64,000 nucleotides of DNA from Mucilaginibacter sp. UR6-1 (GTDB lineage Bacteria; Bacteroidota; Bacteroidia; Sphingobacteriales; Sphingobacteriaceae): positions 496,001-560,000 of the forward strand of contig NZ_JAJIWP010000001.1 in the NCBI RefSeq assembly GCF_020880975.1. The letters run 5' to 3'. Below, in pieces: positions 33,844 through 55,465 of this stretch. Every line of letters starts with the position of its first letter. Positions within the stretch are counted from its first letter, which is position 1. The position numbers and the translations under genes were made by a program. A model generated the notes under the pieces. The model did no database searches. It worked only from the letters and a program-made list of their open reading frames with translations, and was not told the origin of the DNA.

Positions 33844-33904
33844 TTTCACGTTCTCTAATTTATGTAAATTGCCCAACGGTCATTTTTTAAACCTTTCTTA
33901 AACA

Positions 33905-33936: not shown

Positions 33937-34086
33937 ATCATCATAAAAGCTGCATCATTAAATGATCCTGCAAGCTGCTTTTTTTCGAAAGGGTTGACAC
34001 CTTCATTTCCCTGATCGATGCGCGTTCAATAGTTTATTCGGTCATTGTGAGCCCTATAAATGTCCATCAAACCTCATCTTATATTA

Positions 34087-36633
34087 TCAATAGGTCAGGG
34101 TCAATCCGGCACCAAGCCCCATGTCGCTGTCATAATGAGATGATATCGAGAAGTATTTAGCCACGATATACCGAAGACCTGCTGCATACTCCTTATCGGT
34201 ATTGACCATCACGGTAAACCGCAAACGCCGGGTAAGCGGCATATCCTCGCGGCCCAGCTGGAAACGCAGCTTACCATTACCATCGATACGCGCATCAGCA
34301 ATAAACAGCATTGGCAGTGTATAGGCAATACCGGCAACGACGGTTTTCCGGTCCTCTTTATTACTGACCTGCCCGAACATGTTTTTAGCATCACTGCCAA
34401 AGATATTTTTCTCATCCGGGTTGAACTTCTTGTAGTGATAGTCAAAGCCGATATAGGGATAGAGCCACTGGTTCCGCCCGATATACCGGCCGATCATGGT
34501 TTCGCTTTCATAACCCATTTTCGCGTCCGTACCCAAATGCCACAGGGTGCTGGCTTTCCAGCGCGTGCTGCCCAGCATAATCAGCCCGTCGCTCCCGTTG
34601 CTTTCCAGGCCGATCTTGCCCATCAGGTGGGGCATCCGGTCATCGCGGTACAATTGACGCTGTGCCAGTTCAGGGTCCGGCACGTCAGGGTTCGGCGGGG
34701 AGTTTTCATAAGAAAATACCCTGCCCATCCCGCTCATCATGTGGTATAAGATATGGCAGTGAAAGAACCAGTCACCGCCCGGCTCGGTCGCCGCAAACTC
34801 GATGGTATCCCTTTCCATCGGCATGATGTCGATCACATTCTTCATCGGGGCGTTGTCGCCTTGTCCGTTGAGCACGCGGAAGTCGTGGCCATGCAGGTGC
34901 ATCGGATGCCGCATCATGCTGTTATTGTACAGGATGATGCGCAGGTTTTCACCCTTTTTGATCAGGATCTTATCCGATTCGGAAACGGTTTTATTGTCCA
35001 GCGTCCAGACATAGCGGTTCATGTTCCCGGTCAGGTCAAATTTCAGTTCCCTGATCGGACCTTTGGGCAGGGTAGTCCGGTTCGGGTCACGGAGCATCGT
35101 GTAATTAAGGGTAACGATATCACTGCCACCGGGGGGCATGCTCATTCCGGCCATACCAGGATTGCCCGAACCCTGCATCCCCGGCATACTATTTTTTTTA
35201 TCGCCTGCTTTTGGCTTTTCCTCACCGGTGATCTCCGGATACATCACCGTGTTCATGTCCATGACCTGGTTTTGCATGTTCATGCCCTCCATTTGAACCA
35301 GGTTGCCGTTCATGTCCATCATGTCGTTCATCATCTTCATGCCTGCGAAATATTTTAGTTTAGGCATTTTACCGGCCGGTACCGCAGGGCCGCTCCCCAG
35401 CCACAGGGATGCCGACCGGGTACGGTCTTCCGGTGTTACCAGGAATTCGTAGCGCTTGTTCTCCGGAATGGTCACTACCACATCGTAAGTTTCTGAAACG
35501 GCGATGATGAGGCGGTCGACCTCTACGGGTTCTACATCATTGCCGTCAGTGGCCACAACCGTCATTTTACCACCGGCATACTTCAGCCAGAAATAGGAAG
35601 ATGCACCGCCGTTGGCGATCCTTAAACGCACTTTATCCCCGGCTTTGAACTGCGGCTGCTCAGCCTGGTTTTGGCCATTGATCAAAAAACTGTCATAGTA
35701 AACATCACTCACGTCCATGGCGTTCATGCGTTTCCATTCATTGACCACTTTCGTTTTAAAGTGCCCTGACCGGATAGCCTCCAGGTAACTTTGCGTCGAC
35801 CCTTTCCTGAGGGCAAACCAGTCCGAGGCCGCATGAAGGCTGCGTTGTACCTCTTCCGGTTTCATATTTGTCCAGTCACTCAAAACCACGGGCAAGGTAG
35901 GTATGTCCCATTCCTGCCTTTTGTTGATAATAAATGACCCGTACATACCGATCTGCTCCTGCAGTCCTGAATGGCTGTGGTACCAATGCGTGCCGTGCTG
36001 CCTGATCGGGAACTTATACAGATGGGTCGCGCCCGGCTTGATCGGCATTTGCGTCATATTGGGTACACCATCATAGCGGTTAGGCAGGAAAAGTCCATGC
36101 CAGTGCAGGGAGCTTTCTTCTTTCAGGTTGTTGTGCACATAGATCTCTGCGGTATCGCCTTCAGTAAAGGTTAAGGTCGGCATAGGGATGCTCCCGTTCA
36201 CCGCAATGGCGCGTTTGGGTTTTCCGCCAAAACTGACGACGGTATCCGCCAGGTAAAGGTCATAGCGGACGGTACGGGGCGGGGTATGGTTGGCCAGGGT
36301 TTTTACCGGCCCCAGTTTTGCCCTCGCATTTTGATAGGGATTATCCGCAGCGGGCTTGTCCGCCATCGTCATACCGCTCATATTGTCCGTTTTTGCTGCG
36401 GAATCTTTCGCCGGTATGCCGCTTCCCATTTTTGGGGAAATGCTTTTCGGTTTTTCGCTGACCAGTTTCATCCCGCACCGCGGACAGTTACCAGGCCCGG
36501 AGGCGTGAATATCCGGATGCATAGGGCACGTATAGGTAACAGGCGTTTGCTGTTGCGTCGCTGTCTTGTCGCCTTGGGCAAAAGCCGGCAGCCAGAGGCA
36601 GAGCATCAGGGCCATGATCATATGTTTTTTCAT
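34087..36633 (-). CDS. Multicopper oxidase with N-terminal metal-binding and C-terminal CopB-like domain
   Basis: 848-aa secreted protein. Signal peptide MKKHMIMALMLCLWLPAFAQ. A heavy-metal-binding motif follows at about 35-57 (TCPMHPDIH, then CPRCGMKLV). The CopA/PcoA-type laccase core has HWHG, HWYHSH, HPMHLHGH and HCHILYHM copper motifs and a Met-rich insert at about 440-510. The last 180 residues (WHLGTDAKMGYESETMIGRY, VVAGIAYTLPMLF, ending GLGAGLTLTY) look like PcoB/CopB outer-membrane barrel sequence, so this is a PcoA-PcoB-type fusion. Expected role: oxidation and sequestration of Cu(I) in the periplasm. Overlaps the haem-binding gene by 4 bp. Confidence 0.9.
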   Translation of the reverse strand: MKKHMIMALMLCLWLPAFAQGDKTATQQQTPVTYTCPMHPDIHASGPGNCPRCGMKLVSEKPKSISPKMGSGIPAKDSAAKTDNMSGMTMADKPAADNPYQNARAKLGPVKTLANHTPPRTVRYDLYLADTVVSFGGKPKRAIAVNGSIPMPTLTFTEGDTAEIYVHNNLKEESSLHWHGLFLPNRYDGVPNMTQMPIKPGATHLYKFPIRQHGTHWYHSHSGLQEQIGMYGSFIINKRQEWDIPTLPVVLSDWTNMKPEEVQRSLHAASDWFALRKGSTQSYLEAIRSGHFKTKVVNEWKRMNAMDVSDVYYDSFLINGQNQAEQPQFKAGDKVRLRIANGGASSYFWLKYAGGKMTVVATDGNDVEPVEVDRLIIAVSETYDVVVTIPENKRYEFLVTPEDRTRSASLWLGSGPAVPAGKMPKLKYFAGMKMMNDMMDMNGNLVQMEGMNMQNQVMDMNTVMYPEITGEEKPKAGDKKNSMPGMQGSGNPGMAGMSMPPGGSDIVTLNYTMLRDPNRTTLPKGPIRELKFDLTGNMNRYVWTLDNKTVSESDKILIKKGENLRIILYNNSMMRHPMHLHGHDFRVLNGQGDNAPMKNVIDIMPMERDTIEFAATEPGGDWFFHCHILYHMMSGMGRVFSYENSPPNPDVPDPELAQRQLYRDDRMPHLMGKIGLESNGSDGLIMLGSTRWKASTLWHLGTDAKMGYESETMIGRYIGRNQWLYPYIGFDYHYKKFNPDEKNIFGSDAKNMFGQVSNKEDRKTVVAGIAYTLPMLFIADARIDGNGKLRFQLGREDMPLTRRLRFTVMVNTDKEYAAGLRYIVAKYFSISSHYDSDMGLGAGLTLTY

Positions 36634-37103
36634 TTTTGTTGTTTTAATAAAAGGCGTTCCGCCGATCGTTTGACCCAGTTTTGCAACAGGGCTTTTTCCT
36701 TTACTGAAAGGATGGCGTTCCGGTGTATCAGCGTATAAGATGCTAAAGGCATCGTGCCTTCATCCAGGCTTTCCGCGATCGCCCTTAGTTTACTGTTTTG
36801 CTTCCTGGCGCTGTAAGTCGCGAAATCGTTGAAATTCAAGTTTTTTTTACCTTCCGCTACATGCCTGTCCAGCATCATCCGCACCGGCTGGATCATGGCA
36901 TATGCGGGATAACGGGTATTATTGCTGTGGCAATCATAGCAGGCGGTCTTTAAGACCACCTGCACATTACCCGGTACATCCAGCACCCCATTGATATCAT
37001 TTGCCGGTACTATCCTGCCTTCGTTGTGTGCGCGGGGCAGGAATTGGATCACGACAAGAATGACAGCCGCCATGGACAATATCATTTTAACTGCGCTGTT
37101 CAT
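36630..37103 (-). CDS. Haem-binding domain protein (single CxxCH)
   Basis: 157-aa membrane-anchored protein, ATG 37103. N-terminal anchor MILSMAAVILVVIQFLP, then the haem-attachment motif C-Y-D-C-H (about residues 55-59) in the typical TACYDCHSNNTRYP context of the haem-binding PF14376 group, and a helical C-terminus with W near the end (LLQNWVKRSAERL). It sits in a row of 4-bp ATGA overlaps with the DUF3347 gene upstream and the oxidase downstream. Possible electron carrier for the oxidase. Confidence 0.85.
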   Translation of the reverse strand: MNSAVKMILSMAAVILVVIQFLPRAHNEGRIVPANDINGVLDVPGNVQVVLKTACYDCHSNNTRYPAYAMIQPVRMMLDRHVAEGKKNLNFNDFATYSARKQNSKLRAIAESLDEGTMPLASYTLIHRNAILSVKEKALLQNWVKRSAERLLLKQQK

Positions 37104-37699
37104 GGGATATATTTCAGTTCCTCTTTCACAGCGCCGCAGGTTGGCATCGCAGATCCCAGGTAGGGGTTTTTGATCGCTTTGGTTTCGCTCAACCAAAGCG
37201 CGCCTTTCTGATCGTTGTACATCGGGCAACGGTCGATATACAGGTTCCGCGTTGTGCCGAAAGCTTTGACCAGATCGATCATGTCCTTGCTCAGCATATC
37301 AAAATGCTCGCGCTGATGCGGTAGCTTCCCGGCGCTTTTACCGATGTGTTCAGCCATTTCCTCAGCATCACCGGCGATATCGTCGAAGTACCTTTTTTGG
37401 CTAGCTGATAAAGGTGACCGGTCAAATTTGGCGAATCCCTCCGCCAGTATGGTCCCGGCGGCCGCGGCTTCATTACTGTTGTCCGCTGCCAGCCCATCCT
37501 TTATTTTCAGGTAGTTAACGAGCAGTCCGCTGAGGGGTGTGGGTACTTTCCCATCAACACCGGGTTTGGCAGCTGTATGCTTTACATGGCTTGCCTTGTG
37601 GGCTGAGTCTTTTGCTGCGTTTGACTTTTTAGGGTGCTTACAGGCACCAAGGAAAAGTGAAGCTACTGCTAAAGCAGTAACATATACTAAGGTTTTCAT
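37100..37699 (-). CDS. DUF3347 lipoprotein of the copper cluster
   Basis: 199-aa lipoprotein, ATG 37699. Signal with lipobox LFLGAC (C20) followed by a Lys/His-rich spacer. The DUF3347 domain (about 50-195) shows LLVNYLKIKDGLAADNSNEA, the HQREHFDMLSKDM helix and the metal-type ending C-P-M-Y...W-L...NPYLGSAMPTCG. The Cys/Met/His set suggests copper binding, similar to CusB/CusF-linked domains. Overlaps the haem-binding gene by 4 bp. Confidence 0.88.
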   Translation of the reverse strand: MKTLVYVTALAVASLFLGACKHPKKSNAAKDSAHKASHVKHTAAKPGVDGKVPTPLSGLLVNYLKIKDGLAADNSNEAAAAGTILAEGFAKFDRSPLSASQKRYFDDIAGDAEEMAEHIGKSAGKLPHQREHFDMLSKDMIDLVKAFGTTRNLYIDRCPMYNDQKGALWLSETKAIKNPYLGSAMPTCGAVKEELKYIP

Positions 37700-37777
37700 G
37701 ATAATGGATTGATAATGATATCCATCATGAGCGGGATGACCGCTCAAGATGGATGACTTCTGTTAAAAACTTATGCG

Positions 37778-38278
37778 TTATTTTTTCAGGGTTTCAGCAA
37801 TCTTGCCGCAGGTCAGCATCTGATTTCCGAAATAGGGATTCCGGATCGCCGCGTCAGCGGAAAGCCAGTAAATCTTTTTCATCGGGCAGTAATCATAGTA
37901 AACCGTTTGCCCGGCCAGGTTAACCGCCTTGGCTAATTTGAAGAAATTGGCAGAAAAATTTGCGAAGTGTTCCCGTTGATGAGCGATGTCCTTGCTTTCT
38001 GATATATGCCTTGCGTCAAATGCTAATTTTTCGTGGATTGAATTAAAAGCATTTCTGTCAGCTTCAGATAGGGATTTTATATCCAGGTCATTGGCCGCTT
38101 TTAGAAAATTACCTGCTTTTAAGGCAGTGGCCGCCGCATCACCGTTGACCAGCGCATCTTTGATGCTATAATAAAAAGGTAACAGGGAGGCGGGTGTGGA
38201 AGATTTGGTTTCCTGTGCAAATAGAAGTTGCGTAAACATAGTTGCGATGAGCGCAACCAATAGAAATATCTTTTTCAT
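37778..38278 (-). CDS. DUF3347 secreted protein, paralogue
   Basis: 166-aa protein with signal peptide MKKIFLLVALIATMFTQLLFAQ. Same DUF3347 pattern as its neighbour: YYSIKDALVNGDAAAT, AHQREHFANFS, Y-D-Y-C-P-M-K, W-L, NPYFGNQMLTCG. It has no lipobox and no His-rich spacer, so it is probably a soluble periplasmic partner of the lipoprotein version. A tandem duplication followed by divergence is likely. 78 bp separate it from the next gene. Confidence 0.88.
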   Translation of the reverse strand: MKKIFLLVALIATMFTQLLFAQETKSSTPASLLPFYYSIKDALVNGDAAATALKAGNFLKAANDLDIKSLSEADRNAFNSIHEKLAFDARHISESKDIAHQREHFANFSANFFKLAKAVNLAGQTVYYDYCPMKKIYWLSADAAIRNPYFGNQMLTCGKIAETLKK

Positions 38279-38352
38279 GATTTGAATGAATTAATGTGAC
38301 GGAAAAAATTAAACATGGCAAGCCCATGTAGTTCTAATTACCTGTCAATTCA

Positions 38353-38814
38353 TCAAATCTGAAAACTCTGTATAGTAATGCGGATGGGGTGATTGGGGGG
38401 CCTTCGCCGTTTATTCAGCGCTACTGACCATCGTTGCCGTACATCCCAAACTGGGTTTAAAAAGAACAGATAAAATGCGGCGACGAAAAATAAAGGAGAA
38501 AGTAAGTCAAAGTGATGAGACAGCGGAGGAACCTTGGCTAAGGTGTTGAAACTGTTGACTAGTCCCTGGCAGCAGGAATCATCCTTAGCGGTGATGCCTG
38601 GTTGGCCGGGATGATGCTGCGCGCTGAGAGGGTGGACCCTCTTTTGCCCGTCGTGATGATGTACAGCAGCTTCAGCGACATTATGGTGATGGCCGGCTTC
38701 ATGATGGCTGGCAGTTTCTTCCTGTCCGTGACCGGACATCAATAAAGCGCAGGCAAATCCGGTAGCCGAATTCAGCAGGAATATAAACAATAATAAAAGC
38801 GCTTTATTTCTCAT
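38353..38814 (-). CDS. Histidine-rich membrane protein, first gene of the copper cluster
   Basis: 153-aa protein, ATG 38814 (MRNKALLLLFIFLLNSATGF). N-terminal helix, then a His-rich region (about 30-75) with clusters SHHEAGHHHNV and AAVHHHDGQK, a CC pair in DDSCCQGL, and a hydrophobic C-terminal helix (LLSPLFFVAAFYLFFLNPV). Small proteins of this kind open copper clusters in related bacteria and probably bind copper at the membrane. It leads the minus-strand operon; the promoter should lie in 38815-38900. Confidence 0.65.
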   Translation of the reverse strand: MRNKALLLLFIFLLNSATGFACALLMSGHGQEETASHHEAGHHHNVAEAAVHHHDGQKRVHPLSAQHHPGQPGITAKDDSCCQGLVNSFNTLAKVPPLSHHFDLLSPLFFVAAFYLFFLNPVWDVRQRWSVALNKRRRPPNHPIRITIQSFQI

Positions 38815-38826
38815 CCTCAGGTACAA

Positions 38827-40183: not shown

Positions 40184-41203
40184 TTATTCCTGGTCACCCA
40201 CTGCGGATAGACGGACATAAAATATTGTTCCTTCCAGCTCCCGGCTTTCTAACCATATCTTTCCCTCGTGGCTTTCTATGATTTGCCGGGTGATGTACAT
40301 GCCAAGTCCCGTGGAGCTTTCGCCATCGGTTCCGGTTCGCCTGAAAGCTGTAAATTTGTGGTAAATGCCGGATTGCTTTTCCGCTGGGATGCCTATACCG
40401 TTGTCTTTGAATATCACGAGCAGATGACCATCATCTTTTTGCAACGTGACAGTGACCTCACCTCCGGATGGCGTAAATTTGATCGCATTGGAAAGCAGGT
40501 TGCTAAAAGCACGTTTGATCTTGATCTGGTCTGCCTGAATGTAACTGGCTTCAGGTGGCAAATATTCCTTGAGCTTTATCTTTTTCTGCTGGACAGCCGT
40601 TTTGAAAGAGGCTATGCATTCCCGGATCAGTTCATTTAAATTCAAACGCCTCGCTTTTAACAGGTTTTGACTTTCCGCAACTAACATATCATTAATGATC
40701 TCGGTCGCATAACGGCAGGATTCCTGAGCAATCGTAATGAGTTCACTGTTCTCTTCATTTTTCCCGGCATGTTCTAATAAATAGGTAACGCTTAGTACGT
40801 TTGATATCGGGTTTTTGAGATCATGGGCAATGCTTTGGATGAGGTTTTGCTGTTCCTCTATAAAGTTGCACAAGTGGTCGATGATGTCCTGCTTGTTGAT
40901 GACCCCTAAAAGCGTTTCTCCCTCATATACCATCAGGATATCCGAATGCGTGTCGCGCATAACAGATAGGGCATCGGATATCGTGTAATCAGGTGACAGT
41001 ACCGGCTTTTCGGTCAGGCAGTCTACGATAAGGTTGTGCTGCTTTTTAAACAGATCATACGCCGTAATCACCCCTAGTATTTCGGAACCATCAACTGTCA
41101 CCAGCGCACCTGCGTATCCCGAAACAATGGGCTTAACCTGTTTGACTCCCTGATAGGCATCCACCTTCGGATAGTTATTTTTGATCAGTGAGGAAATAGT
41201 CAT
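40184..41203 (-). CDS. Soluble CBS-domain histidine kinase
   Basis: 339-aa kinase without membrane segments. Two CBS motifs (about 1-60 and 62-115: ALVTVDGSEILGVITAYDLF and ILMVYEGETLLGVINKQDII) replace a periplasmic sensor and should bind an adenosine nucleotide. The HisKA phospho-site is H127 in IAHDLKNPISN. HATPase boxes: NLLSNAIKFTP (N), DNGIGIP (G1), STGLGMYITRQIIE (G2). Its start overlaps the 110-aa gene by 4 bp, and a single-domain response regulator lies upstream, so the three probably form one signalling operon. Confidence 0.9.
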   Translation of the reverse strand: MTISSLIKNNYPKVDAYQGVKQVKPIVSGYAGALVTVDGSEILGVITAYDLFKKQHNLIVDCLTEKPVLSPDYTISDALSVMRDTHSDILMVYEGETLLGVINKQDIIDHLCNFIEEQQNLIQSIAHDLKNPISNVLSVTYLLEHAGKNEENSELITIAQESCRYATEIINDMLVAESQNLLKARRLNLNELIRECIASFKTAVQQKKIKLKEYLPPEASYIQADQIKIKRAFSNLLSNAIKFTPSGGEVTVTLQKDDGHLLVIFKDNGIGIPAEKQSGIYHKFTAFRRTGTDGESSTGLGMYITRQIIESHEGKIWLESRELEGTIFYVRLSAVGDQE

Positions 41204-44856: not shown

Positions 44857-47337
44857 TTATTTCAGTTTGTTCAAAACCGGAACATTGGCTGATAAGCGAT
44901 ATATTTTCCCTTTAACAGTCGGGAAGGTGGTGATATAATAGCTGCTCTCCCTGACCGATTTTACCCCGAAAAGGGATACCGGTGAACCCGTGCGCACCCT
45001 GCAGCGTGCCCCGGTCAGCGATCTGATGCTGGCCGCCTGCAAATGCCCGCTTTTCCACCGCAGACTGACCTCAAAGCCGCCGCGCCCTTTCAATCCGGTG
45101 ATCTCACCATCCGGCCAGGCATCGGGTAATGCAGGCAGCAGGTGAACTTCACCGTCGCTGCTTTGTAAAAGCATTTCCGCTATTCCGGCCGTCGCACCGA
45201 AATTGCCGTCAATCTGAAAAGGCGGGTGTCCGCAAAATAAGTTCGGATAGGTGCCACCGCCATCCGACATATTGACACGGTAATTCGTGGTTGGATTCAG
45301 CAGGCGTTGCAGCAGCGAATAGGCGCGGTTCCCGTCTTCCAGCCGTGACCAGAAACTTATTTTCCAGGCCAGTGACCAGCCTGTGCCCGCATCCGTACGC
45401 GCCTCCAGCGTCTTTCGCGCCGCTAAAGCCAGATCAGGCGTATTTTGAGGACTGATCTGTGTCCCCGGATACAAGGCAAAAAGATGGGAAACATGACGGT
45501 GCGCAGGTTCTGTCTCTTTGAAATCTTCAGGCCATTCCATTAATCTGCCGTCAGGCGCAATTTTGGGCCTGGCAAGTTCAGACAAGGCTTGTTTAATCCG
45601 TTTCTGTAAATCGGAGTTGTCGTTCAGTAACCTGCCGGCCTGTATAACTGCTGTAAACAGCCCGCTGATAATTTCCTGGTCGTGTGAAGGTCCCATCGTC
45701 ACCGAGGCTACTGAACCATCCGGTGCATGGAATGAGTTTTCGGGGGAAGTAGATGGCCCGGACACCAGCTCACCTGTTGCAGGATTTTTAACCAGCCAGG
45801 AGAGATAAAATTCGGCCGAACCCAGCAAAATAGGGTAGATACGTTTCAAATAGGCCGGGTCTTTGGTAAAGGTATAATGGTCCCAAAGCTGCTGCGCTAT
45901 CCAGCCGCCACCGGCCGTGTACATTCCCCAGCTGGTTCCCTCACCGGGCGACGTAAAACCCCAGACGTTTGTAATGGTCTGACTGCACCAGCCATTTGCA
46001 CCGTATTGAATGCGTGCTGTTTGTTTCCCCGGTTTCACGAGCGATTCCACCAGATCCGTAAAAGGACTGAAGCAATCGGAAAGATTTGCCACATCAGCCG
46101 ACCAGTAGTTCATTTGCAGGTTGATATTGGTATGGTAGTCGCAATTCCAGGGGTTCTTAATTTTATTGCTCCACATTCCCTGAAGATTGGCAGGCAGGGT
46201 GCCATTCCGCGAGGATGCGATCAGCAGGTACCTGCCGAACTGGAAGTAAGTCTGCTGCAGTCTCAGGTCGTTCCTGTTTTCCAGACGCACATCGGTAGGG
46301 ATGGTATCCCTTCCTCCAATGGCGAGATTAAACTGAACACGCCCGAAAAGCGCTTGGTAATCCTGCGTGTGCCTTTGATAAAGCTTGTCGTATCCCTTTG
46401 CCGCAGCGCTTTGCAGCTGGCTTAACGAGGTTAACAAAGGATTCCCCTTTTTGTAGACCGGATAATCCAGGGCATAATCTGTGGCAGCGGTGAGGATGAG
46501 TGTTACGGCATCCCCATGCTGCACCATGATCGCATTGTCAGTTAAGCTGATCTTCCCGCTTCCGGCAACAGCTTTCAGCCGTGCGGCATAAGCCATTCCG
46601 ATGCCACCCTTACCGTCATCGAGCGTGCCGCTCATGAGCAGGTGGCCGTTTGCTGCCCGGGTGTTGAAGCGTTCAGGGCGGGTCATGCTTACTTTGAAAT
46701 TTATGGCTGAATGCCTGTCAGCGGTAAAACGGATTACAATCGCGCGGTCGGGGTAACTGGCAAAGATCTCCCGCTTAAAACGTATGCCCGCCTGTAAATA
46801 GGAAATGATCACCTTGCCGTTATCTAAATCGAGTTCCTTCCGGTAATCGGTGTACGGCGCATCAGTCTGAAAGTCAAACAGGAGATCACCAAGTGTTTGA
46901 TAACTGCCATATTGTTTGCCTGATGATCCCGGACCCTTACAAACCTGCGTTTTTTCGGTCAGCGCGCTCGCCTCCCTATATTTCCCCTGGAACAATAATT
47001 CACGAATTTTTTCGAGGGATAAGGCTGCAGCCGGATTATTGCTGTCCTGGTAGCTGCCCGACCAAAGTGATTTTTCGTTGAGCTGAATACGTTCCCTGTT
47101 CACGTCGCCATATATCATTGCTCCCAGATAACCGTTGCCGACGGGCAGTGCTTTCAGCCATTCCGGGTCGCTCTCAAAAACATTGTCAACATCCCGCGTT
47201 CCGGAATTGGCAGGCTTATCATACCAGAGCTTAAGCTGGGGAAATTTTTTTTCAGCGGTTTGTGCGCTGCAACAGGGTCCGGTCAGGAACAGGAGCAGCA
47301 CTGGCAGCATGAGGTATTTCTGGAAGGCTTTATTCAT
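44857..47337 (-). CDS. GH95 alpha-L-fucosidase-type glycosidase
   Basis: 826-aa secreted enzyme with signal peptide [20 protein letters not shown]. Family pattern: [20 protein letters not shown] and LNEKSLWSG at the N-terminus, the (alpha/alpha)6 barrel with [14 protein letters not shown] (the two Asn of the GH95 active site), [13 protein letters not shown], and [15 protein letters not shown]. The [18 protein letters not shown] motif follows. GH95 covers alpha-1,2-L-fucosidases and alpha-L-galactosidases; either suits fucosylated xyloglucan side chains. First gene of the GH95-GH31 unit, 118 bp from the left end of the ars module. Confidence 0.9.
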
Positions 47338-47439
47338 CGTTTGCGTATCTCTTTATCAGGGAGACACACGATTCACAGGATTTTACTCACTTGGCGAAGT
47401 TATTTATGGTAAACGGTCAAAATTTGTCGATAACATTTC

Positions 47440-48084
47440 TTAATGTCTCAAATTTACATCATTTGATGTCACACTTACTTTAGCGTAACATAACCAGTAT
47501 GCTGCCCTGATCGCGTTAGCACGTAGTTTAGGCGGCAGGCGTCTCATCTCCAAACGCTCATCTTTAAAGCGTTCGATGGGTAAGCCGTTCATCCCGTAAA
47601 CCTGACCAGCAAAGCATCTGATCTTTTGCACGGAGTATTTTGCAGTGATCATCAGGCTGGAAACATGGTGCAGCAGCCGGAAGTAAGATTCGGTGTAAGC
47701 CATCTGGGCATGGAATCCATGATCAATAATATCATAAAGTGGCTGTTGCAGTTTAACAAAGGCGGGCGGCTTTGAACTTAGGTGCCAGCAGCGCTTGTTT
47801 TTCGATCATTTCAGCGGTGTATTTGATCTCGACCAGCAGCGGTTTGCGTTTGATTTCCGACAGGTAGTAACCGCTGCATCGGGCGTATATGTTGCAGGCT
47901 TATTTCCGTTAAGGTCATGGATGGTAACCGGCTGCGCCGTGTAAGATTCGTCGCTGGTATCATATTCCAGCAGGGTCAGGTAATTGCGTTCGAGCGCAGA
48001 CTCGAAGTGCTGGCTCTTGTTATTTTTCAGGCTCGACCGCTTTCCGTTAATGGAACGGTTGCTCTGCCTGATCTTTCAGACAGG
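47440..48084 (-). pseudogene. tnsA: Broken Tn7-like TnsA endonuclease gene
   Basis: Minus-strand remnant of about 215 codons, close to normal TnsA length. The N-terminus reads PV-stop-KIRQSNRSINGKRSS, where one codon has become TGA near 48080. Next come SQHFESALERNYLTLLEYD, AQPVTI and TYTPDAAV, then a frameshift near 47870 and YLSEIKRKPLLVEIKYTAEM with APKFKAA. The E...D...E-x-K nuclease residues are all readable. After another shift, LYDIIDHGFHAQMAYTESYF continues to TAA 47440 as the TnsA C-terminal region. tnsB, which should follow, is absent. Confidence 0.7.
47456..47478 (+). repeat. Left terminal inverted repeat of ars module
   Basis: ACATC-attt-GATGT followed by CACACTTAC. The innermost 15 bases (TGATGTCACACTTAC) match the right copy perfectly; the outer 8 contain both mismatches. 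It contains the small dyad ACATC/GATGT. Confidence 0.65.
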
Positions 48085-48214
48085 TGTAAAGACATGTAGT
48101 AACAGGTAGAAATGGTGCCGCGAAGTTGTTAAGCCGCGACCGATTCCCATACCGATATTTTTAACATCGTGTTAACAAATATGCCCCTATAAGGGAGTAA
48201 AGGTTCATTTTGCA

Positions 48215-48877
48215 TTAATAAGCTTTGCGGAGTCTATCGGCCAATTCATCGGGCAAGTCGCTGTTTTCTATCGCCTCGGCAGCTTTTTCGATATCGTATT
48301 CGAAGCGAATAAACTCGGGCTGTATTTCGCCGCTGTCTCCAATATTAATGACGACATAGCAACCCTGCGGATTGCCATCCTTAGGTTTGCCGACCGAGCC
48401 AATATTTATTACATGCTTAGTGCCGATAACACGGTGATATGGCAAATGCGAGTGGCCGACACAAAGCACATCGGCTTTGGCTTCTGCCATCATTTCCGAC
48501 ATATAGTTTTCGTCGGTATCTTCCAGCACATATTCGTTGATGCTACGGGTGCTGCCGTGCGCCAGTACAATATTTAAGTGGTCATGGTTAAGCTGGTATT
48601 CCAGTTTAATATGTGCCGGTAAGGTGTTCAGATAGGCCCGATTATCAGTAGTTACCAGTTCATAGGCATAGCCCTTGGTTTTTTGATCATGGTTGCCGGC
48701 CAGTGTACCTATACCACGTTTGCGTATTTCAGCGATGACCTCATTGGGCCAGATATTATAACCGATCATATCGCCTAAGCAATAAACGGCATCTATCTTG
48801 CGGCTGTCCAAGTCAGCTAAGAATGCTTCGAATGCCGGTAAGTTGGCATGTATATCAGAAAAAAGTGCGATCTTCAT
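48215..48877 (-). CDS. Metallophosphoesterase (YfcE/MJ0936-type) of the ars operon
   Basis: 220-aa calcineurin-like phosphoesterase, ATG 48877. Metal-site motifs: FSDIHANLPA (D-x-H), YCLGDMIGY (GD), TLAGNHDQ (GNHD), VLAHGS and CVGHSHLPY (GHSH). It ends with a small helical tail. It overlaps acr3 by 1 base and closes the ars operon; phosphoesterases of this type are found in arsenic clusters of related bacteria, where their substrate is unknown. Confidence 0.88.
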   Translation of the reverse strand: MKIALFSDIHANLPAFEAFLADLDSRKIDAVYCLGDMIGYNIWPNEVIAEIRKRGIGTLAGNHDQKTKGYAYELVTTDNRAYLNTLPAHIKLEYQLNHDHLNIVLAHGSTRSINEYVLEDTDENYMSEMMAEAKADVLCVGHSHLPYHRVIGTKHVINIGSVGKPKDGNPQGCYVVINIGDSGEIQPEFIRFEYDIEKAAEAIENSDLPDELADRLRKAY

Positions 48878-49962
48878 TATTCCACGGCGGTTAAAGATTT
48901 AGCGGTATAATATTTCTTACGGAAGTAAAAGGCCAGGTTTACCAAAGCGATCAAGGCGGGCACTTCCACCAGCGGGCCGATCACCCCGGCAAAAGCTTCA
49001 CCGGAGTTGATACCGAAAACACCGATGGCGACCGCGATGGCCAGTTCAAAGTTATTGCCGCTTGCTGTAAAGGCAATGGAAGTTGACCTCGAATAATCGG
49101 CACCAAAGGATTTGCCGACAAAGAAGCTGAGCACAAACATGATGGTAAAGTAGATCACCAGCGGGATCGCGATACGCAGCACATCGAAAGGTATCTGCAC
49201 GATCAGGTTGCCTTTTAGACTGAACATCACCACTATGGTAAAGAGTAAAGCGATCAAAGTGATCGGTGAGATGAACGGCACATATTTAGTCTGGAACCAT
49301 TCTTCACCCTTTAATTTTATTAAAGCATAACGGCTGACGACACCGGCAGCGAATGGAATACCCAGGTAGATACCTACGCTTTTGGCGATCTCGCCAATGG
49401 TGATATTTACCGCCAAACCCTTCATTCCGAATAAGGGCGGGAGTACGGTAATGAACAGGTAAGCGTAAACGCTGTAAAGTAACACCTGGAAGATACTGTT
49501 TAGGGCAATTAATCCTGCTGCATATTCGCGGTTGCCTTCCGCCAGTTCATTCCAAACCACCACCATAGCGATACAACGTGCCAGCCCGATCAGGATCAAA
49601 CCAACCATGTAAGCGGGATGGTCGCGCAGAAAGATTATAGCCAAAATGAACATCAGCACCGGCCCCATGATCCAATTCAGGATAAGCGAAGCGCTCAATA
49701 CTTTGGTATCTTTAAATACCTCGCCCATATTCTCGTATTTTACTTTGGCCAGCGGCGGGTACATCATCAAGATCAAGCCGATAGCCATTGGAATATTGGT
49801 CGTACCGCTGGAAAAGGAATTGATAAAGGCAGCCGATGATGGTATAAAGTACCCGGTTCCCACACCAATAGCCATCGCCAGGAATATCCAAAGCGTAAGG
49901 TAACGGTCTATAAATCCTAATCTTCTTCTATTTGCTGCCGGGGCACAGTCATTTGCGCTCAT
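48877..49962 (-). CDS. arsB: ACR3-family arsenite efflux permease
   Basis: 361-aa permease of the ACR3 (BART superfamily) type with ten hydrophobic segments. Signature pieces: [20 protein letters not shown] in TM2 and [19 protein letters not shown], which contains the conserved cysteine of the arsenite path, then [17 protein letters not shown]. It extrudes As(III) driven by the proton gradient. ATG 49962. The 92-bp gap before it contains a copy of the ArsR-type dyad, so it may have its own promoter. The symbol arsB/acr3 is used loosely; the sequence is ACR3, not E. coli ArsB. Confidence 0.92.
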
Positions 49963-50015
49963 GTGTCTAATTTCTTTTTTGGTTTTGAACTGTATACTAA
50001 TTCTTCCAGTAATGT

Positions 50016-50040
50016 TTTATTGCGATTTTGCGATTGATTT
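50016..50040. promoter_or_regulatory. Candidate ArsR operator upstream of acr3
   Basis: TTTATTGCGATTTTGCGATTGATTT resembles the elements at 51505 and 51877 (shared ATTGNNAT.TTGCGATT pattern) and is 54 bp upstream of acr3. Confidence 0.45.
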
Positions 50041-50054
50041 GTTAAAAAAAAGGC

Positions 50055-50480
50055 TTAACCCTTTACGTGCTCATTCACGAAGTCAGCTGCGTAGACTTTA
50101 ATCATATCCCGCACCCGTCTGAACTCATCCATTATTTCTTCGGGCGTACCCGTGGCTTTGGCCGGATCAGGAAAGTTCTCATGAAGACGCTCTACCTTCC
50201 CCGGAAAGAAAGGACAAGCTTCGTTAGCATTATCACAAACGGTAATGACGATATCGAAAGGGATACCTATATATTCATCTACATGGTTGGACGTATGTTT
50301 GCTCATGTCGATATGATCTTCAGCCATTACCGCGATGGCTTTGGGGTTTACCCCATGCGTTTCAATGCCTGCGCTATAAAAATTGGCTTGATCACCCGCG
50401 AAGTGGCGCAGGTACCCTTCGGCGATCTGGCTGCGGCAACTGTTGCCGGTACACAGGACTAGTATATTTTTTTGGCTCAT
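50055..50480 (-). CDS. arsC: Arsenate reductase, thioredoxin-coupled LMW-phosphatase type
   Basis: 141-aa ArsC of the Bacillus/S. aureus pI258 class, ATG 50480. P-loop C10-TGNSC-R16 followed by SQIAEGYLRHF, and the resolving cysteines in ITVCDNANEACPFFPG (about 81 and 89, matching the known C10/C82/C89 relay). It reduces As(V) to As(III) for export by ACR3. It overlaps arsN2 by 4 bp (ATGA). Confidence 0.93.
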   Translation of the reverse strand: MSQKNILVLCTGNSCRSQIAEGYLRHFAGDQANFYSAGIETHGVNPKAIAVMAEDHIDMSKHTSNHVDEYIGIPFDIVITVCDNANEACPFFPGKVERLHENFPDPAKATGTPEEIMDEFRRVRDMIKVYAADFVNEHVKG

Positions 50481-50902
50481 AATTTCTTTTTCATGACAAT
50501 AGCTGATACCGGGCAAACATGGCTGAACTTCGATGACTGTTGTACTTCAGCAGGCACTTCTTCCCTGGTTATTTGATCATAATGATGCCGCTCAAAATAA
50601 GCCGGTGCGGTTTCGGTCAGCAAATACAATTCTGATAAGCCTTTCAGCCTGCTCATATTCGTCAAGCGTGCCAGCAGTTTACCGGCGATACCCACACTGC
50701 GGTGTGCCGGATGTACAGCCAAAGAGCGAAGCAAACCGTATCGGCCGTAAACTTCAACTCCGGCTACACCGACAACCGCACCATCTTGAATGGCAACGAT
50801 AAAGTTATCCAGCGTTTCCGGCAGATCGGCCACCGGCAGCTTTTCAGCCACCAGCAGCTCATGCAACGCATCTTTATAGGGTTGGGCCTGGTCGATGATC
50901 AT
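50477..50902 (-). CDS. arsN2: Arsenic-resistance N-acetyltransferase ArsN2-like
   Basis: 141-aa GNAT, ATG 50902 (a TTG at 50923 would overlap the DUF6428 stop). GNAT signatures: VVGVAGVEVYGRYGLLRSLA, then VHPAHRSVGIAGKLLARL (acetyl-CoA loop R-x-x-G-x-A) and LYLLTETAPAYFERHHYDQI. The LLTETAxxYFxxxGF-like ending is typical of ArsN2. ArsN-type enzymes can acetylate arsinothricin-like compounds; ArsN2 function is less clear. Its position between DUF6428 and arsC supports the name. Confidence 0.88.
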   Translation of the reverse strand: MIIDQAQPYKDALHELLVAEKLPVADLPETLDNFIVAIQDGAVVGVAGVEVYGRYGLLRSLAVHPAHRSVGIAGKLLARLTNMSRLKGLSELYLLTETAPAYFERHHYDQITREEVPAEVQQSSKFSHVCPVSAIVMKKKL

Positions 50903-50913
50903 TTTTGTAATAT

Positions 50914-51486
50914 TTAGCAGCAACCACCGCCAGGTGTGCAGCAGGCTTCAGCGGGTGCAGCAGCCAGGTTCACTAATTGTACTTTTGGTTTTTCTGCCAC
51001 AGCTGGTGTGCAGCATTCCTCGCCTTTATCGTTAGTACCGCAGCTACCGCCACGGCCTATGGCTTTACATTGTACTGCATCAGGGCGCAGGTCAACTGTT
51101 AAAGCGCCATCACTTACGATCATTTCATTCGGGAACATCTGGCGGGTATCAAATTCGGAATTGCCAAACTCGATCTTCACCGTACTTTTCGGGTTCAACG
51201 GCAGCATTTTTTCTACGATGTCCACGATAGATAAAGCTTTACCTACTTTCATTGAACGTTCCTGATTTTCGCCTTCAGGTACCCAAAGCTGCACGATGAT
51301 CTCTGTCCAGGCATTCATCACGCCGCCGCAATCCACCGAAGTTATCGGCGCTTGTTTGATCTCGGTGATATGGTAAGCCGCATCTACCATTTTGCCTTCC
51401 GCATATTGGAATTGCAGGTCAAGGTCGGGATGCTGTAACAAGGTATCCTTAAAGGTTTTCCAGTTGATCGCTTCTACTTTATTCAT
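50914..51486 (-). CDS. DUF6428 protein with cysteine-rich tail, ars operon
   Basis: 190-aa protein of the DUF6428 type found in arsenic operons of Bacteroidota. Core: FQYAEGKMVDAAYHITEIKQ, then ITSVDCGGVMNAW and IIVQLWVPEGENQ. The tail holds several Cys groups (GSCGTNDKGEECC, EACCTPGGGCC), which suggests As(III)/metal binding. It may act as an arsenic chaperone or sensor; this is inference. ATG 51486, preceded by an ArsR-type dyad. Confidence 0.82.
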   Translation of the reverse strand: MNKVEAINWKTFKDTLLQHPDLDLQFQYAEGKMVDAAYHITEIKQAPITSVDCGGVMNAWTEIIVQLWVPEGENQERSMKVGKALSIVDIVEKMLPLNPKSTVKIEFGNSEFDTRQMFPNEMIVSDGALTVDLRPDAVQCKAIGRGGSCGTNDKGEECCTPAVAEKPKVQLVNLAAAPAEACCTPGGGCC

Positions 51487-51504
51487 GGCTATTTATTTTA
51501 TATT

Positions 51505-51527
51505 TATTGTAATATTGCGATTGATTT
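51505..51527. promoter_or_regulatory. Candidate ArsR operator upstream of DUF6428 gene
   Basis: TATTGTAATATTGCGATTGATTT, 19-41 bp upstream of the DUF6428 start. It shares ATTG-N-AATATT-N-CGAT with the site before arsR. Confidence 0.5.
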
Positions 51528-51539
51528 GATCAAAAAATT

Positions 51540-51872
51540 TTAACAGCAGTTATCCTTCTTTTCTTTGTAAGAACCGAACAGCACATTCAATTCCAGTTGC
51601 AGCGCTTTCCAGGCTTCCGGCTCAATGCAATAACAAACGCTCACACCTTCAATGGTGCCCTGGATCAAGCCCGCATTTTTTAGTTCTTTCAAATGCTGGG
51701 AAATGGTCGCCTGTGCCAAGCCCAATTCTTCTACCAAATCGCCGCAAATACAGGCATTGGCCTTGATGATTTGTTGCAGGATAGCGATACGAGCCGGGTG
51801 TGCTATTGCTTTCAGTTGCACTGCCAGCTTATTTTGCTGCTCGTTGAAGATATCTGTTTTAGTTAAGCCCAT
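51540..51872 (-). CDS. arsR: ArsR-family arsenic-responsive repressor
   Basis: 110-aa winged-helix repressor, ATG 51872. HTH: NACICGDLVEELGLAQATIS followed by QHLKELKNAG. Several cysteines could sense As(III): the pair in ACICGD at the start of the DNA-reading region, C-Y-C in the beta wing (VSVCYCIEPE), and a CC at the C-terminus. It heads the ars transcript and is preceded by an almost palindromic element 5 bp from its start codon. Confidence 0.92.
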   Translation of the reverse strand: MGLTKTDIFNEQQNKLAVQLKAIAHPARIAILQQIIKANACICGDLVEELGLAQATISQHLKELKNAGLIQGTIEGVSVCYCIEPEAWKALQLELNVLFGSYKEKKDNCC

Positions 51873-51876
51873 AAGT

Positions 51877-51898
51877 ATATTGCAATATTACGATTAAT
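51877..51898. promoter_or_regulatory. Candidate ArsR operator upstream of arsR
   Basis: Dyad TATATTGCAATATTACGATTAA directly upstream of the arsR ATG; the ATATTGCAATAT core is perfectly symmetric. Similar elements precede the DUF6428 gene and acr3. Confidence 0.55.
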
Positions 51899-51941
51899 AT
51901 TTTAATCCTTCCAAAAGAAAAGGAAATAATCTTCTTGCCTT

Positions 51942-51964
51942 GTAAGTGTGACATCATAAGATGT
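51942..51964 (-). repeat. Right terminal inverted repeat of ars module
   Basis: GTAAGTGTGACATC-ataa-GATGT... on the + strand; its complement matches the left copy at 21 of 23 positions. It lies 200 bp upstream of the GH2 gene. Confidence 0.65.
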
Positions 51965-52163
51965 TATTGACAAGATTTTTACGCCTGCATCATTGATATC
52001 AGACGGGGCAGCCTGATTTACAGGCCATAACCCGGCTTTACTGAGAAACGCTGGATTAATTAATCATCATAAAGGGTAAAATCCGGGGCAACAGCTGTCT
52101 ATATAATGAATACATCCATACAACGCTTTGACGCGTTGTTATAACACGCTTATTACTTTTGAT

Positions 52164-54737
52164 ATGACTAAAAAACTCCTAATTTATTTATTCCTGATTT
52201 TTTGGATACCGGTATTTGCCCAGTCACCCCGTCAGCATATCAATTTTAACAGGGAATGGAAATTTAAGCTTGGTGACCATCAGGGTGCGGATGCTGTCAG
52301 GTACGATGACAGCAGCTGGGAGGCTGTAGGACTTCCGCATTCGTTCAGCATGCCTTATTTTTTATCGAGTGAATTTTACGTAGGATTTGGCTGGTACCGT
52401 AAACAATTCAGCATGCCATTTTCCAAAACAGGTAAAAGAATCAGCCTGGACTTTGAAGGTGCTTTTCAATATACCGAGGTTTTTGTGAACGGTCATAGAG
52501 CAGGTGAACACCAGGGCGGCTACACCGGGTTTTCCATCGATATTACCCGTTTCGTTAGAGCCGGAAACAACACCTTTGCGGTACGGGTAAATAATCACTG
52601 GAACGCCCGCCTTGCTCCAAGGGCAGGGGAGCATGTGTTTTCCGGCGGCATTTACCGCGACGTCAACCTGGTCATCACCGATGAAGTACATATGGGCTGG
52701 TACGGCACTCATATTACCACACCGGAGGTTAGTGAAACATCGGCCATCGTGCAAATTAAATCGGAATTGCATAATGACGGATCGCGGGCGGTGAAGTCAT
52801 TATTAACAACCCGGATTTTTGATCCGGCCGGCAAACTGGTTGCCCGCTTATCCTCAACCCAAATTATGCCGGCAAAATCTGCTTTAATTATCAGCCAGAA
52901 ATCCGGCCATCTGGTCGATCCCCGGCTTTGGGGTCCCGGCCATCCTGATATGTACCGGGCCGTTTCCACCATCAGTACAGGCGGAAAGATCAAAGACATC
53001 TATACCACAAACTTTGGGATACGTTCGATCCGCTGGACAGCAGATCAGGGTTTTTTTCTGAACGGCAAGCATATTTATTTAAGGGGGGCGAATGTTCACC
53101 AGGATCATGCCGGCTGGGGTGATGCAGTCACCAATGCCGGGTTTTACAGGGACATTAGAATGATCAGTGATGCCGGATTTAATTTCATCAGAGGGTCTCA
53201 TTACCCGCACGATCCGTCGTTTGCCGAAAGCTGCGATCAACAGGGAATGCTGTTCTGGTCTGAAAATGCTTTTTGGGGCATTGGGGGAAGCGAAAATAAT
53301 CCGGAAGGTAACTGGAATACCAATGCATACCCGGTTTTAGAGGCGGATAGAAAAGCTTTTGACGCCAGTGTGTTACAACAGCTGAAAGACATGATCCGGA
53401 TAAACCGTAATCACCCTTCCATTATTGCCTGGAGCATGTCTAACGAACCTTTCTTTACAAAACCGGCTACTATCGCACCGATGAGAAAGTTACTGGAAAA
53501 AGAAGTGGCGCTCTCCAGGCTGCTCGATCCGGGCAGGCCTGCAGCGATCGGGGGAGCACAGCGCCCGCTCGATGAATCCCGTATTGATCAATTAGGGGAT
53601 GTTGCAGGTTACAACGGAGATGGCAGTACGATCCCGGAATTTCAGCATCCCGGATTCCCGACAATCGTTTCGGAGTACGGTAGCACAACTGCCGACCGGC
53701 CCGGAAACTATGAGCCCGGCTGGGGGGATCTTACCGGCGACAAAGGCCTGGAAACCTACGCGTGGAGAAGCGGGCAGGCCATTTGGTGCGGCTTTGACCA
53801 TGGCAGTATTGCCGGGTCCCGATTGGGTAAAATGGGTATTGTAGATTACTTCAGGATTCCGAAGCGCGCTTGGTACTGGTATCGTAATGAGTACGTACAT
53901 ATTGCCCCGCCGGTTTGGCCCATGCAGGGCAAGCCTGCAAAACTTGTACTCCAGGCATCACAAACTTCGGGGATAAAAACGGATGGAACCGACGATGTGT
54001 ATCTGTTGATTAAAGTAACGGATGAAACAGGGAGGGCTATCTCTAATTCGCCCCCGGTCACATTTACAGTTATTTCCGGGCCTGGGGAGTTTCCTACAGG
54101 CAGGTCCATTAATTTTGAAGAAGCCAGCGACATCAGGATAATGGACGGGCAGGCGGCAATAGAGTTCCGCTCTTACTATTCGGGTAAGACGCTTATTCGT
54201 GCCACGTCACCAGGTTTACAGCCGTCGGAGGTGCTCCTTGATTTTACCGGCCCTGTATCCTACGTGAACGGTAAGTCTCCCCAAGTAACCAGCCGGCCAT
54301 ACGTTCGCTTCAGGAGCGTTAGCCATAAAAATACGCCGCAGCAATTTGGCCGTAACAATCCGACCTTTGCGAGTACATCCGGGCAGAACCACTCCGCCGG
54401 GCTGGCTGCCGACGGGGATTTATCGACCTTTTGGCAGGCATTGAGCAGCGACCGTGATCCGTCATGGGTTTTGGATATGGAACGTGGTGTAACGGTATCG
54501 GATGTGAAGATAATTTTTCCGTACGCAGGTCTTTATCATTATCGCATTGAATTATCGGATGACCGGGTGAACTGGAAAACGATTGCAGACCTTTTACACA
54601 ATACACTCAACGAACAATCCAGGCATTTAGTGATCGAAAAAAAGATGGCCGGCCGGTATTTGAGAATCCGGTTCGAAGATCAAAAGGATGCAAGGCTTAG
54701 CGAAGTTGTCGTTACGGGTATTCAGGATGCCCGTTAG
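52164..54737 (+). CDS. GH2 beta-galactosidase-like enzyme with C-terminal discoidin domain
   Basis: 857-aa secreted GH2 enzyme, ATG 52164, signal peptide MTKKLLIYLFLIFWIPVFAQ. N-terminal sugar-binding domain (REWKFKLGDHQGADAVRYDD, NNHWNARLAPRAGEHVFSGG), Ig-like domain, TIM barrel with acid/base E428 (SMSNEPFF) and nucleophile E504 (IVSEYGS). A further Ig-like domain follows, then a C-terminal F5/8-type discoidin domain at about 735-855 (AADGDLSTFWQA, RYLRIRFEDQ). Substrate not certain; beta-galactoside is most likely and fits galactosylated xyloglucan with the GH31/GH95 pair. Confidence 0.88.
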   Translation: MTKKLLIYLFLIFWIPVFAQSPRQHINFNREWKFKLGDHQGADAVRYDDSSWEAVGLPHSFSMPYFLSSEFYVGFGWYRKQFSMPFSKTGKRISLDFEGAFQYTEVFVNGHRAGEHQGGYTGFSIDITRFVRAGNNTFAVRVNNHWNARLAPRAGEHVFSGGIYRDVNLVITDEVHMGWYGTHITTPEVSETSAIVQIKSELHNDGSRAVKSLLTTRIFDPAGKLVARLSSTQIMPAKSALIISQKSGHLVDPRLWGPGHPDMYRAVSTISTGGKIKDIYTTNFGIRSIRWTADQGFFLNGKHIYLRGANVHQDHAGWGDAVTNAGFYRDIRMISDAGFNFIRGSHYPHDPSFAESCDQQGMLFWSENAFWGIGGSENNPEGNWNTNAYPVLEADRKAFDASVLQQLKDMIRINRNHPSIIAWSMSNEPFFTKPATIAPMRKLLEKEVALSRLLDPGRPAAIGGAQRPLDESRIDQLGDVAGYNGDGSTIPEFQHPGFPTIVSEYGSTTADRPGNYEPGWGDLTGDKGLETYAWRSGQAIWCGFDHGSIAGSRLGKMGIVDYFRIPKRAWYWYRNEYVHIAPPVWPMQGKPAKLVLQASQTSGIKTDGTDDVYLLIKVTDETGRAISNSPPVTFTVISGPGEFPTGRSINFEEASDIRIMDGQAAIEFRSYYSGKTLIRATSPGLQPSEVLLDFTGPVSYVNGKSPQVTSRPYVRFRSVSHKNTPQQFGRNNPTFASTSGQNHSAGLAADGDLSTFWQALSSDRDPSWVLDMERGVTVSDVKIIFPYAGLYHYRIELSDDRVNWKTIADLLHNTLNEQSRHLVIEKKMAGRYLRIRFEDQKDARLSEVVVTGIQDAR

Positions 54738-54832: not shown

Positions 54833-55465
54833 TTAACCTAACATGAAATATTGGCCAGGCCTGCCTATGTCTCCGATTTCTAACCTGAGTTTAACTGTTG
54901 CACGATACAAATGGTTCGCTATCGATTGGTAGGAAATGCCGGTCCGGGCTTCAATCTCGTTGTGGCTGTAGCCCTTGTGGAATCTCATATACAATACCTG
55001 CCGCTGCCGTTCAGGTAAGTTTAACAGCGCAGTCCGGAAATTTTTACAGTGCAGCAAATCGGTTTCTTTTTCTATCAGGATGATTTCCGGCGAGGGGTCG
55101 CTCAGTGTGGTTAAATTCTCACAGAATGAAATTGATGACACAGACTTTTTCCTCAAATGATTAATAACGATTGATCTTGCGGATACTAAAAAATATTGTG
55201 TTATACATGCTATCCGGCCGATCTTATAGCGTTTGATCCACAGCCTGACAAATAGATCCTGAACAAGGTCGCAGGCCGAATCTTCGTCCTTTACAGATTT
55301 GAGTACGGATTTATAGACGAGCGGGTAAAGTTCTTTGTACAGGATTGCAAAAGCTTTGGTGTCGCCGCGCAGCGTATGGTTCCATAATTCGGATAATTCA
55401 GATTTTGTTTTCAATAATATAGCTGGTTTGTGGATATTTCTTGTTGTCAGGGCAGGCAGGCCCAA
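54833..55465 (-). CDS. ECF RNA polymerase sigma factor
   Basis: About 210-aa sigma-70 ECF factor. Region 2: FAILYKELYPLVYKSVLKSV then SACDLVQDLFVRLWIKR. Region 4: LPERQRQVLYMRFHKGYSHN followed by EARTGISYQSIANHLYRATV. No ATG is available in frame; TTG 55465 or TTG 55414 are possible starts. In Bacteroidota such factors usually sit next to a FecR anti-sigma gene and SusCD, but no anti-sigma gene is present here. It may contribute to control of the adjacent polysaccharide locus. Confidence 0.85.
   Translation of the reverse strand: MGLPALTTRNIHKPAILLKTKSELSELWNHTLRGDTKAFAILYKELYPLVYKSVLKSVKDEDSACDLVQDLFVRLWIKRYKIGRIACITQYFLVSARSIVINHLRKKSVSSISFCENLTTLSDPSPEIILIEKETDLLHCKNFRTALLNLPERQRQVLYMRFHKGYSHNEIEARTGISYQSIANHLYRATVKLRLEIGDIGRPGQYFMLG

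Follow-up and report, generated by a model that had tools for sequence, protein, structure and literature searches.

A non-autonomous Tn7-like element with an ars operon between the GH95 and GH2 genes of Mucilaginibacter sp. UR6-1

Contents of the segment between GH95 and GH2

The stretch of DNA analysed here, referred to as the window, comprises 64,000 nt of the genome of Mucilaginibacter sp. UR6-1 (contig NZ_JAJIWP010000001.1, positions 496,001 to 560,000). In this window the divergent GH95 and GH2 genes are separated by a segment, located 88 bp upstream of the GH95 start codon, that contains a predicted ars operon, broken remnants of transposition (tns) genes and a pair of facing ends. An initial annotation made from the sequence alone had described this segment as an insert derived from a Tn7-like transposon with arsenic genes as its cargo, and in its core that description holds. 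The element is a real and ordinary non-autonomous Tn7-like derivative. It is classed as non-autonomous because TnsB of the kind present in its relatives was not found in the UR6-1 genome (E ≤ 1e-30, and E ≤ 1e-150 in wider searches).

The cargo consists of six open reading frames (ORFs), all open and free of internal stops (Table 1). Genes for ArsR, ArsC and Acr3 stand together in one predicted operon, which by its gene content would function in arsenic resistance. The real start of ArsC probably lies inside the ORF as listed. The ars genes are under purifying selection. Of 18 comparisons with three relatives, 17 gave a ratio of non-synonymous to synonymous substitution rates (dN/dS) of 0.003-0.112 and one, for ArsR, was saturated; many dS values exceed 1, so that the ratios are rough.

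Table 1. Features of the element and its immediate flanks (window coordinates).
Feature	Position	Strand	Basis or remark
Left target-duplication copy, AAATT	47420..47424		4/5 identical to right copy
Left transposon end	47425..47483	+	Outer site TGTCGATAACATTTCTTAATGTCTCA at 47425-47450; second predicted TnsB-type site at ~47461-47478
Left repeat arm	47456..47478	+	Overlaps second site of left end (relatives' ends compared)
tniQ remnant, middle of gene (~residues 207-301 of L007 TniQ)	47501..47770	-	77% DNA identity to element C, L023:13303-13572
tnsA remnant, 5′ part (~residues 15-132 of L006 TnsA)	47775..48187	-	77% DNA identity to L023:17074-17489
YfcE-type metallophosphoesterase, last gene of ars operon	48215..48877	-	PF12850, E = 1.6e-22; TIGR00040, 59.5 bits, above cut-off
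Acr3 arsenite efflux transporter	48877..49962	-	TIGR00832, 447 bits, above cut-off
Thioredoxin-type arsenate reductase ArsC	50055..50516	-	PF01451 (LMWPc), above Pfam cut-off; TIGR02691, 157 bits, below cut-off of 174
ArsN2 acetyltransferase, ORF as listed	50477..50923	-	NF040501, 160 bits, above cut-off
DUF6428 protein	50914..51486	-	PF20001, E = 2e-46
ArsR-family repressor	51540..51872	-	PF01022; NF033788, above cut-off
Right repeat arm	51942..51964	-	Part of right end
Right transposon end	51942..51972	-	Outermost site; TGTCAATAACATCTTATGATGTCACAC identical at 27/27 to two R-type ends of G316
Right target-duplication copy, AGATT	51973..51977		Flanking comparison

Ends, gene remnants and same-genus relatives

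The initial annotation had drawn attention to a 23-bp inverted repeat, and this repeat is well founded. Its arms match at 21 of 23 positions (91% complementarity), a value that none of 40 dinucleotide shuffles of positions 46500-53000 reached (best, 19), and its 14-bp core occurs, with up to 1 mismatch, at these two places only in the 4.57-Mb UR6-1 genome. The ars operon and the tnsA wreck do lie between the arms, as had been stated, but the arms are not the ends of the element. Comparison with relatives from the same genus places the limits at 47425 and 51972 (4,548 bp), with termini of the form TGTC(G/A)ATAACA; the left terminus begins with TGTCGATAACA at 47425 and its counterpart ends at 51972. 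In the reported repeat, one arm corresponds to the second TnsB-type site of the left (L) end and the other to the outermost site at the right (R) end. A 26-bp outer-end pattern, designed from the two ends of the window element itself, is found in the UR6-1 genome with up to 3 mismatches only at 47425-47450 (+) and 51947-51972 (-). The TGT...ACA termini and the repeated predicted TnsB-type sites, of which the R end shows only one, resemble or match those of the relatives, and the pair is unique in the genome.

The ends also agree in sequence with those of a tns-bearing relative termed element C (G316:C1:2544874-2558070, in loci L023 and L028). Positions 47438-47483 are 90% identical to its L end over 46-48 bp, and positions 51946-51973 are identical at 28 of 28 positions to an R-end fragment of the same genome, the match stopping one base outside the element.

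Because the ends had been misplaced, the initial annotation was left with two puzzles, a missing target duplication and an overlap of the left repeat with tnsA. At the corrected ends the flanking pentamers AAATT and AGATT agree at four of five positions and are read as a 5-bp target duplication; a match at least this good arises in about 1.6% (16/1024) of random pentamer pairs. On this comparison the duplication is not missing and was hidden by the misplaced ends. Six relatives have perfect 5-bp duplications, placed with respect to their ends as in the window element. Five of these, L006, L007, L024, L025 and element C, start with TGT and are flanked by CAATT, ATTGC, TTTTT, GAAAA and ACAAA, respectively; the TTTTT duplication sits in a run of T residues and is weak evidence. 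The sixth is a tns-less unit in genome G285 with the duplication CGGAT.

The overlap is explained by a second gene remnant that had escaped notice. Leftwards from the ars operon, the 5′ part of tnsA is followed directly by the middle of tniQ, and the ORF at 47440-47703, overlapping the left repeat, consists mostly of tniQ and runs on into the left end. In tblastn searches, residues 207-301 of the L007 TniQ cover approximately 47491-47769 (E = 3.5e-19), and the L006 TnsA matches the wreck across two frames (E = 3e-31). The claim of a tnsA wreck is thereby confirmed: the remnant is interrupted early by a stop, switches frame between the two stretches that match, runs on into the conserved stretch upstream of tnsA, and still shows the E/D/E-x-K residues, which we take to be the TnsA endonuclease motif. 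Relative to element C, two stretches are absent, one of approximately 3.5 kb between the tniQ and tnsA pieces (L023:13572-17074) and one of approximately 370 bp adjoining the left end (L023:12933-13303). No convincing match to TnsC was found in 47300-48300 (best E = 0.06), and the earlier view that tnsB and tnsC are gone is borne out. The secondary rearrangement that had been considered is not needed, because element C shares the layout of the window element.

A search for the same ends beside tnsABC in other Bacteroidota had been proposed, and tns-bearing relatives with ends of the same kind were indeed found. A 56-residue piece of the wreck identified two same-genus relatives among 301 family genomes (UR6-1 included), and TnsB gave matches at E ≤ 1e-30 in 5 of 149 genus genomes, UR6-1 not among them. 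The distant G386, G700 and G490 were all that a wider search (E ≤ 1e-150; 399 family and 395 phylum genomes, sampled from larger groups) contributed in addition. A TnsB scan of genome contigs returned one close relative, in strain L294, and five distant loci, and all matches among 4,306 plasmid records were below 60% identity.

The element of Mucilaginibacter sp. L294 (G183; NZ_LGEK01000009.1; L006:1800-11664) itself carries ars genes. Its TnsA, TnsB and TnsC (TniB-family ATPase) ORFs are open, its TniQ falls into two ORFs, and its TnsB has rve and Mu-transpos_C matches, the former below cut-off. In L007, L024 and the two elements of L023, tnsA, tnsB, tnsC and tniQ are all open. Locus L025 has all four genes, with tnsA in two frames and tnsC split around a reverse-transcriptase ORF; the latter (6294-8009 of L025, genome G322) was named by eye as group II intron-type. 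The TnsA proteins of relatives match PF08722 (E = 1.4e-16 and 2.1e-18), and the TnsC/TniB proteins of two relatives match PF05621 (E < 1e-66). A core of this kind, with TnsA, a DDE-type TnsB, an ATPase and a TniQ-type protein, is also that of Tn6022 and Tn5053. Their clade of Tn7-like transposons (PMC8649781, PMC10293859) is among the closest known systems.

Element C and the L294 element offer the closest comparisons. The order in element C is L end, tniQ, tnsC, tnsB, tnsA, efflux ORFs with a P-type ATPase, and R end. It shares with the window element the outer site of the R end (27/27), the L end (90%), tniQ and tnsA (77% identical in DNA), the gene order, and, in the interval from tnsA to the R end, a cargo related to metals. 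Unlike the window element, it has open tnsA, tnsB, tnsC and tniQ, sits upstream of FecR, and carries not ars but a P-type ATPase (Pfam) and RND-type efflux ORFs (named by eye). The L294 element has homologous ends and tns genes and an ars cargo 75-80% identical in DNA, but it carries ars on the tniQ side with an extra phosphoesterase and one extra ORF, retains tnsABC as open genes, has a perfect duplication and sits between a sigma gene and FecR.

The 27-bp R end, allowing up to 3 mismatches, occurs in 3 of the 149 genus genomes, namely those of UR6-1, G316 and G285. There is one such place in UR6-1, the partner of which is seen with the outer-end pattern, four in G316, including the facing pair of element C, and a facing pair in G285. 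The G285 pair bounds a 2,110-bp unit (L115, 5469-7578) with full ends and no tns match, whose cargo was named by eye as AraC-type and short-chain-dehydrogenase-type ORFs; non-autonomous units of this end type therefore occur. Three or more elements of the family are stacked in G316 between one sigma gene and its FecR (L023 5778-12870, continuing to L028 9071): a tns-less unit of 2.3 kb, one full element and element C itself, among which lies a stray piece of R end.

We conclude that positions 47425-51972 very probably represent a single transposition unit, belonging to a Tn7-like family of Mucilaginibacter, that has decayed in place into a stranded carrier of ars. The parent family would have encoded TnsA, a DDE-type TnsB, a TniB-type TnsC and TniQ. 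A unit with the layout left end, tniQ, tnsC, tnsB, tnsA, ars cargo and right end would have entered its present site by cut-and-paste movement, with duplication of 5 bp of target. One later deletion of approximately 370 bp would have removed the 3′ part of tniQ, and another of approximately 3.5 kb the 5′ part of tniQ, tnsC, tnsB and the 3′ part of tnsA, joining tniQ to tnsA; the leftover tnsA would then have gained its stop and frame change. As the ars operon is intact and the tns genes are lost, the element would be a stranded carrier, presumably able to move only if a matching TnsABC-TniQ were provided in trans. The direct comparison shows a Tn7-like unit losing its machinery while keeping an intact resistance operon.

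Several observations weigh against this interpretation. The window insertion lacks the setting between a sigma gene and FecR that the mapped relatives described below have in common, and its duplication is 4/5 rather than 5/5. By eye, the window R end has one recognisable site, compared with two in element C. No clear duplication accompanies the small unit and element A stacked in L023 of G316; the small unit is flanked by AGAAT on the left and GAAAT on the right. An uninterrupted divergent GH95/GH2 region was found in 0 of 7 neighbourhoods, some of them on short contigs. Finally, Pfam alone gave the tnsA pieces nothing above cut-off, one scan being uninformative because its control was also silent; the identity of the tnsA and tniQ wreck was settled instead by homology to the relatives.

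Insertion sites of the element and its relatives

All five tns-bearing insertions of the close clade for which both ends could be mapped (L006, L007, L024, L025 and the stack of L023 and L028) lie between a gene for an extracytoplasmic function (ECF)-type sigma factor and a FecR gene, both confirmed by Pfam in every case. Both orientations are seen. In four of the five, 77-106 bp separate the near end from the FecR start as listed, and in L006 one extra ORF stands between the element and the sigma gene. A lone end in L116 is likewise between sigma and FecR genes, with other ORFs present, and a damaged copy in L027, the ends of which were not located, adjoins a sigma gene; L029 has the same genes. 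The tns-less G285 unit, which is outside the five, lies 187 bp upstream of a sigma-FecR pair and not between the two. On an informal estimate, chance is an unlikely cause of this clustering, because FecR genes number 11-44 per genome in the five genomes counted.

Four more distant Bacteroidota relatives (L026, L038, L039 and L040; TnsA was not seen in L026) adjoin comM-type (Mg-chelatase) genes. Tn6022 is described as reaching comM by means of a separate selector, TnsF (PMC10293859), whereas the close Mucilaginibacter clade is found at sigma/FecR loci. TniQ has 413-449 amino acids in the close elements (single-ORF cases), compared with 322-354 in three of the comM-side relatives, and its greater length fits, but does not show, a selector role.

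One proposal is that the TniQ of this clade steers insertion to the ECF sigma/FecR intergenic region, a scattered site present in many copies, in which case the window element would have landed off target or would be left over from a stage at which the targeting of the clade was relaxed. We regard this as evenly balanced between right and wrong. The question of whether a TniQ recognises sigma/FecR loci has become testable, and a selector of a many-copy target, if confirmed, would differ from the single-gene targets glmS and comM named in the literature consulted. The sigma/FecR habit is unusual, a claim limited to the literature searched, from which it is absent: there, Tn7-like elements and fecR appeared together in Pseudomonas work only, and no anti-sigma target in a Bacteroid was found.

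The site of the window element is neither comM nor a sigma/FecR locus. The nearest sigma gene, at 54833-55465, is 2.9 kb from the element, and no FecR match was found within the window. No sequence shared between the insertion sites of the window element and its relatives was seen by eye. A larger element, extending from this sigma gene (54833) to the ORF at 40184-41203 with GH95, GH31 and GH2 as cargo, was considered and rejected, because that ORF encodes a histidine kinase rather than FecR and only two ends are present in the genome.

Relatives with an uninterrupted GH95-GH2 region, which the initial annotation had hoped to compare, did not come to light. Eight genus genomes, UR6-1 included, have a GH2 match, and the neighbourhoods of the other seven were read. 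Three of them (L101, L102 and L103) have a neighbouring GH95-like gene (37-42% identity) on the same strand as GH2, and L105 has a weak, distant GH95-like gene; no GH95-like gene was found on the stretch read in L099, L100 and L104.

Origin of the ars cargo and alternative interpretations

DUF6428, encoded in the ars operon, is found in 112 of the 149 genus genomes (E ≤ 1e-20). Twenty ars loci were examined, 19 from other genomes chosen by DUF6428 identity of at least 90% and one from UR6-1 itself; a partial 92% match in G340 was left out, and L081, of 3.4 kb, holds only part of the operon. In stretches of 3.4-19.5 kb, none of the 20 has a tns protein match (E ≤ 1e-6) or an R-type end, the best candidates having 8-12 mismatches of 27. 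From the wide distribution of DUF6428 and these 20 loci without tns genes or ends, the operon appears to be a common Mucilaginibacter property that has been picked up by transposons. Relatives with the ars operon but without the repeats, which had been held to speak against the insert, are thus literally at hand, yet they do not refute the transposon. The UR6-1 locus (L098; G000:C5:201500-221000) is a second, diverged operon, with Acr3 63% and ArsC 74% identical, and has no transposon end (best, 9 mismatches of 27).

In a tree of five concatenated ars genes from 21 loci, from which the phosphoesterase was excluded, the window operon is joined with that of G165 (support 0.958) and not with L006. 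The same five genes are 84.6% identical in DNA to the tns-free G165 operon and 79.0% to L006. Acr3 is nearest to that of G308 (83.7% in DNA), and the phosphoesterase protein is 84% identical to that of G308, 80% to L006 and 70% to G165; on these comparisons the window operon may be a mosaic. Independent capture is the simpler reading, because the tree joins the window with G165 and not L006. Judged by these alignments, a single transposon clade has probably captured ars operons of the same kind on two or more occasions, and on opposite flanks of tns.

The initial annotation regarded the insert as domesticated and fixed for its arsenic cargo, which goes too far. That selection has kept ars at this site and favoured the loss of tns is doubtful. 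The ars genes are indeed intact and show purifying selection, in contrast to the broken tnsA and tniQ, but such selection would be expected of ars genes anywhere, the genome holds the second ars operon on contig C5, and one genome per species cannot show fixation.

Much less probable still is derivation from an L006-like element by circular permutation, or by tandem duplication with deletions, whereby ars would have moved to the tnsA side. Such a course is suggested by L006, where a similar ars operon stands on the opposite flank of tns, and by the tandem stack in G316. However, element C carries its cargo on the tnsA side without any rearrangement, ORFs are also present on that side in L024 and L025, and the ars tree and DNA identities favour G165 over L006, an argument partly offset by the affinities of Acr3 and the phosphoesterase. 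The permutation model was set aside once element C had been found. The idea that the inverted repeat is an operator pair or a chance match, and the tnsA/tniQ debris unrelated, can practically be dismissed: 19 loci of 19 other Mucilaginibacter genomes do have the operon, or the part held by the contig, without the repeats, and two G316 end copies (a fragment at 2544842 and a lone end at 819472) have no identified facing partner, but the repeat belongs to longer ends that match, to the base, those of tns-bearing elements with target duplications, and the R end is both rare in the genus and never approached in the ars loci examined.

A transposition unit with ars cargo has parallels elsewhere. 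One survey records that Bacteroidetes contain Tn7-like elements, that heavy-metal cargo is known for such elements in general, and that nearly identical arsenate operons are present in two Tn7-like transposons of Bacillus cereus (PMC8649781). These two transposons belong to a different phylum and were likened to the window element by description only. Metal resistance in Mucilaginibacter is reported to reside on CTnDOT-like islands (PMC6316836), and the term Tn7 is absent from that article. A separate heavy-metal-related block lies at 31801-38826 of the window and comprises a P-type ATPase, a multicopper oxidase with a heavy-metal-binding domain and two DUF3347 proteins.

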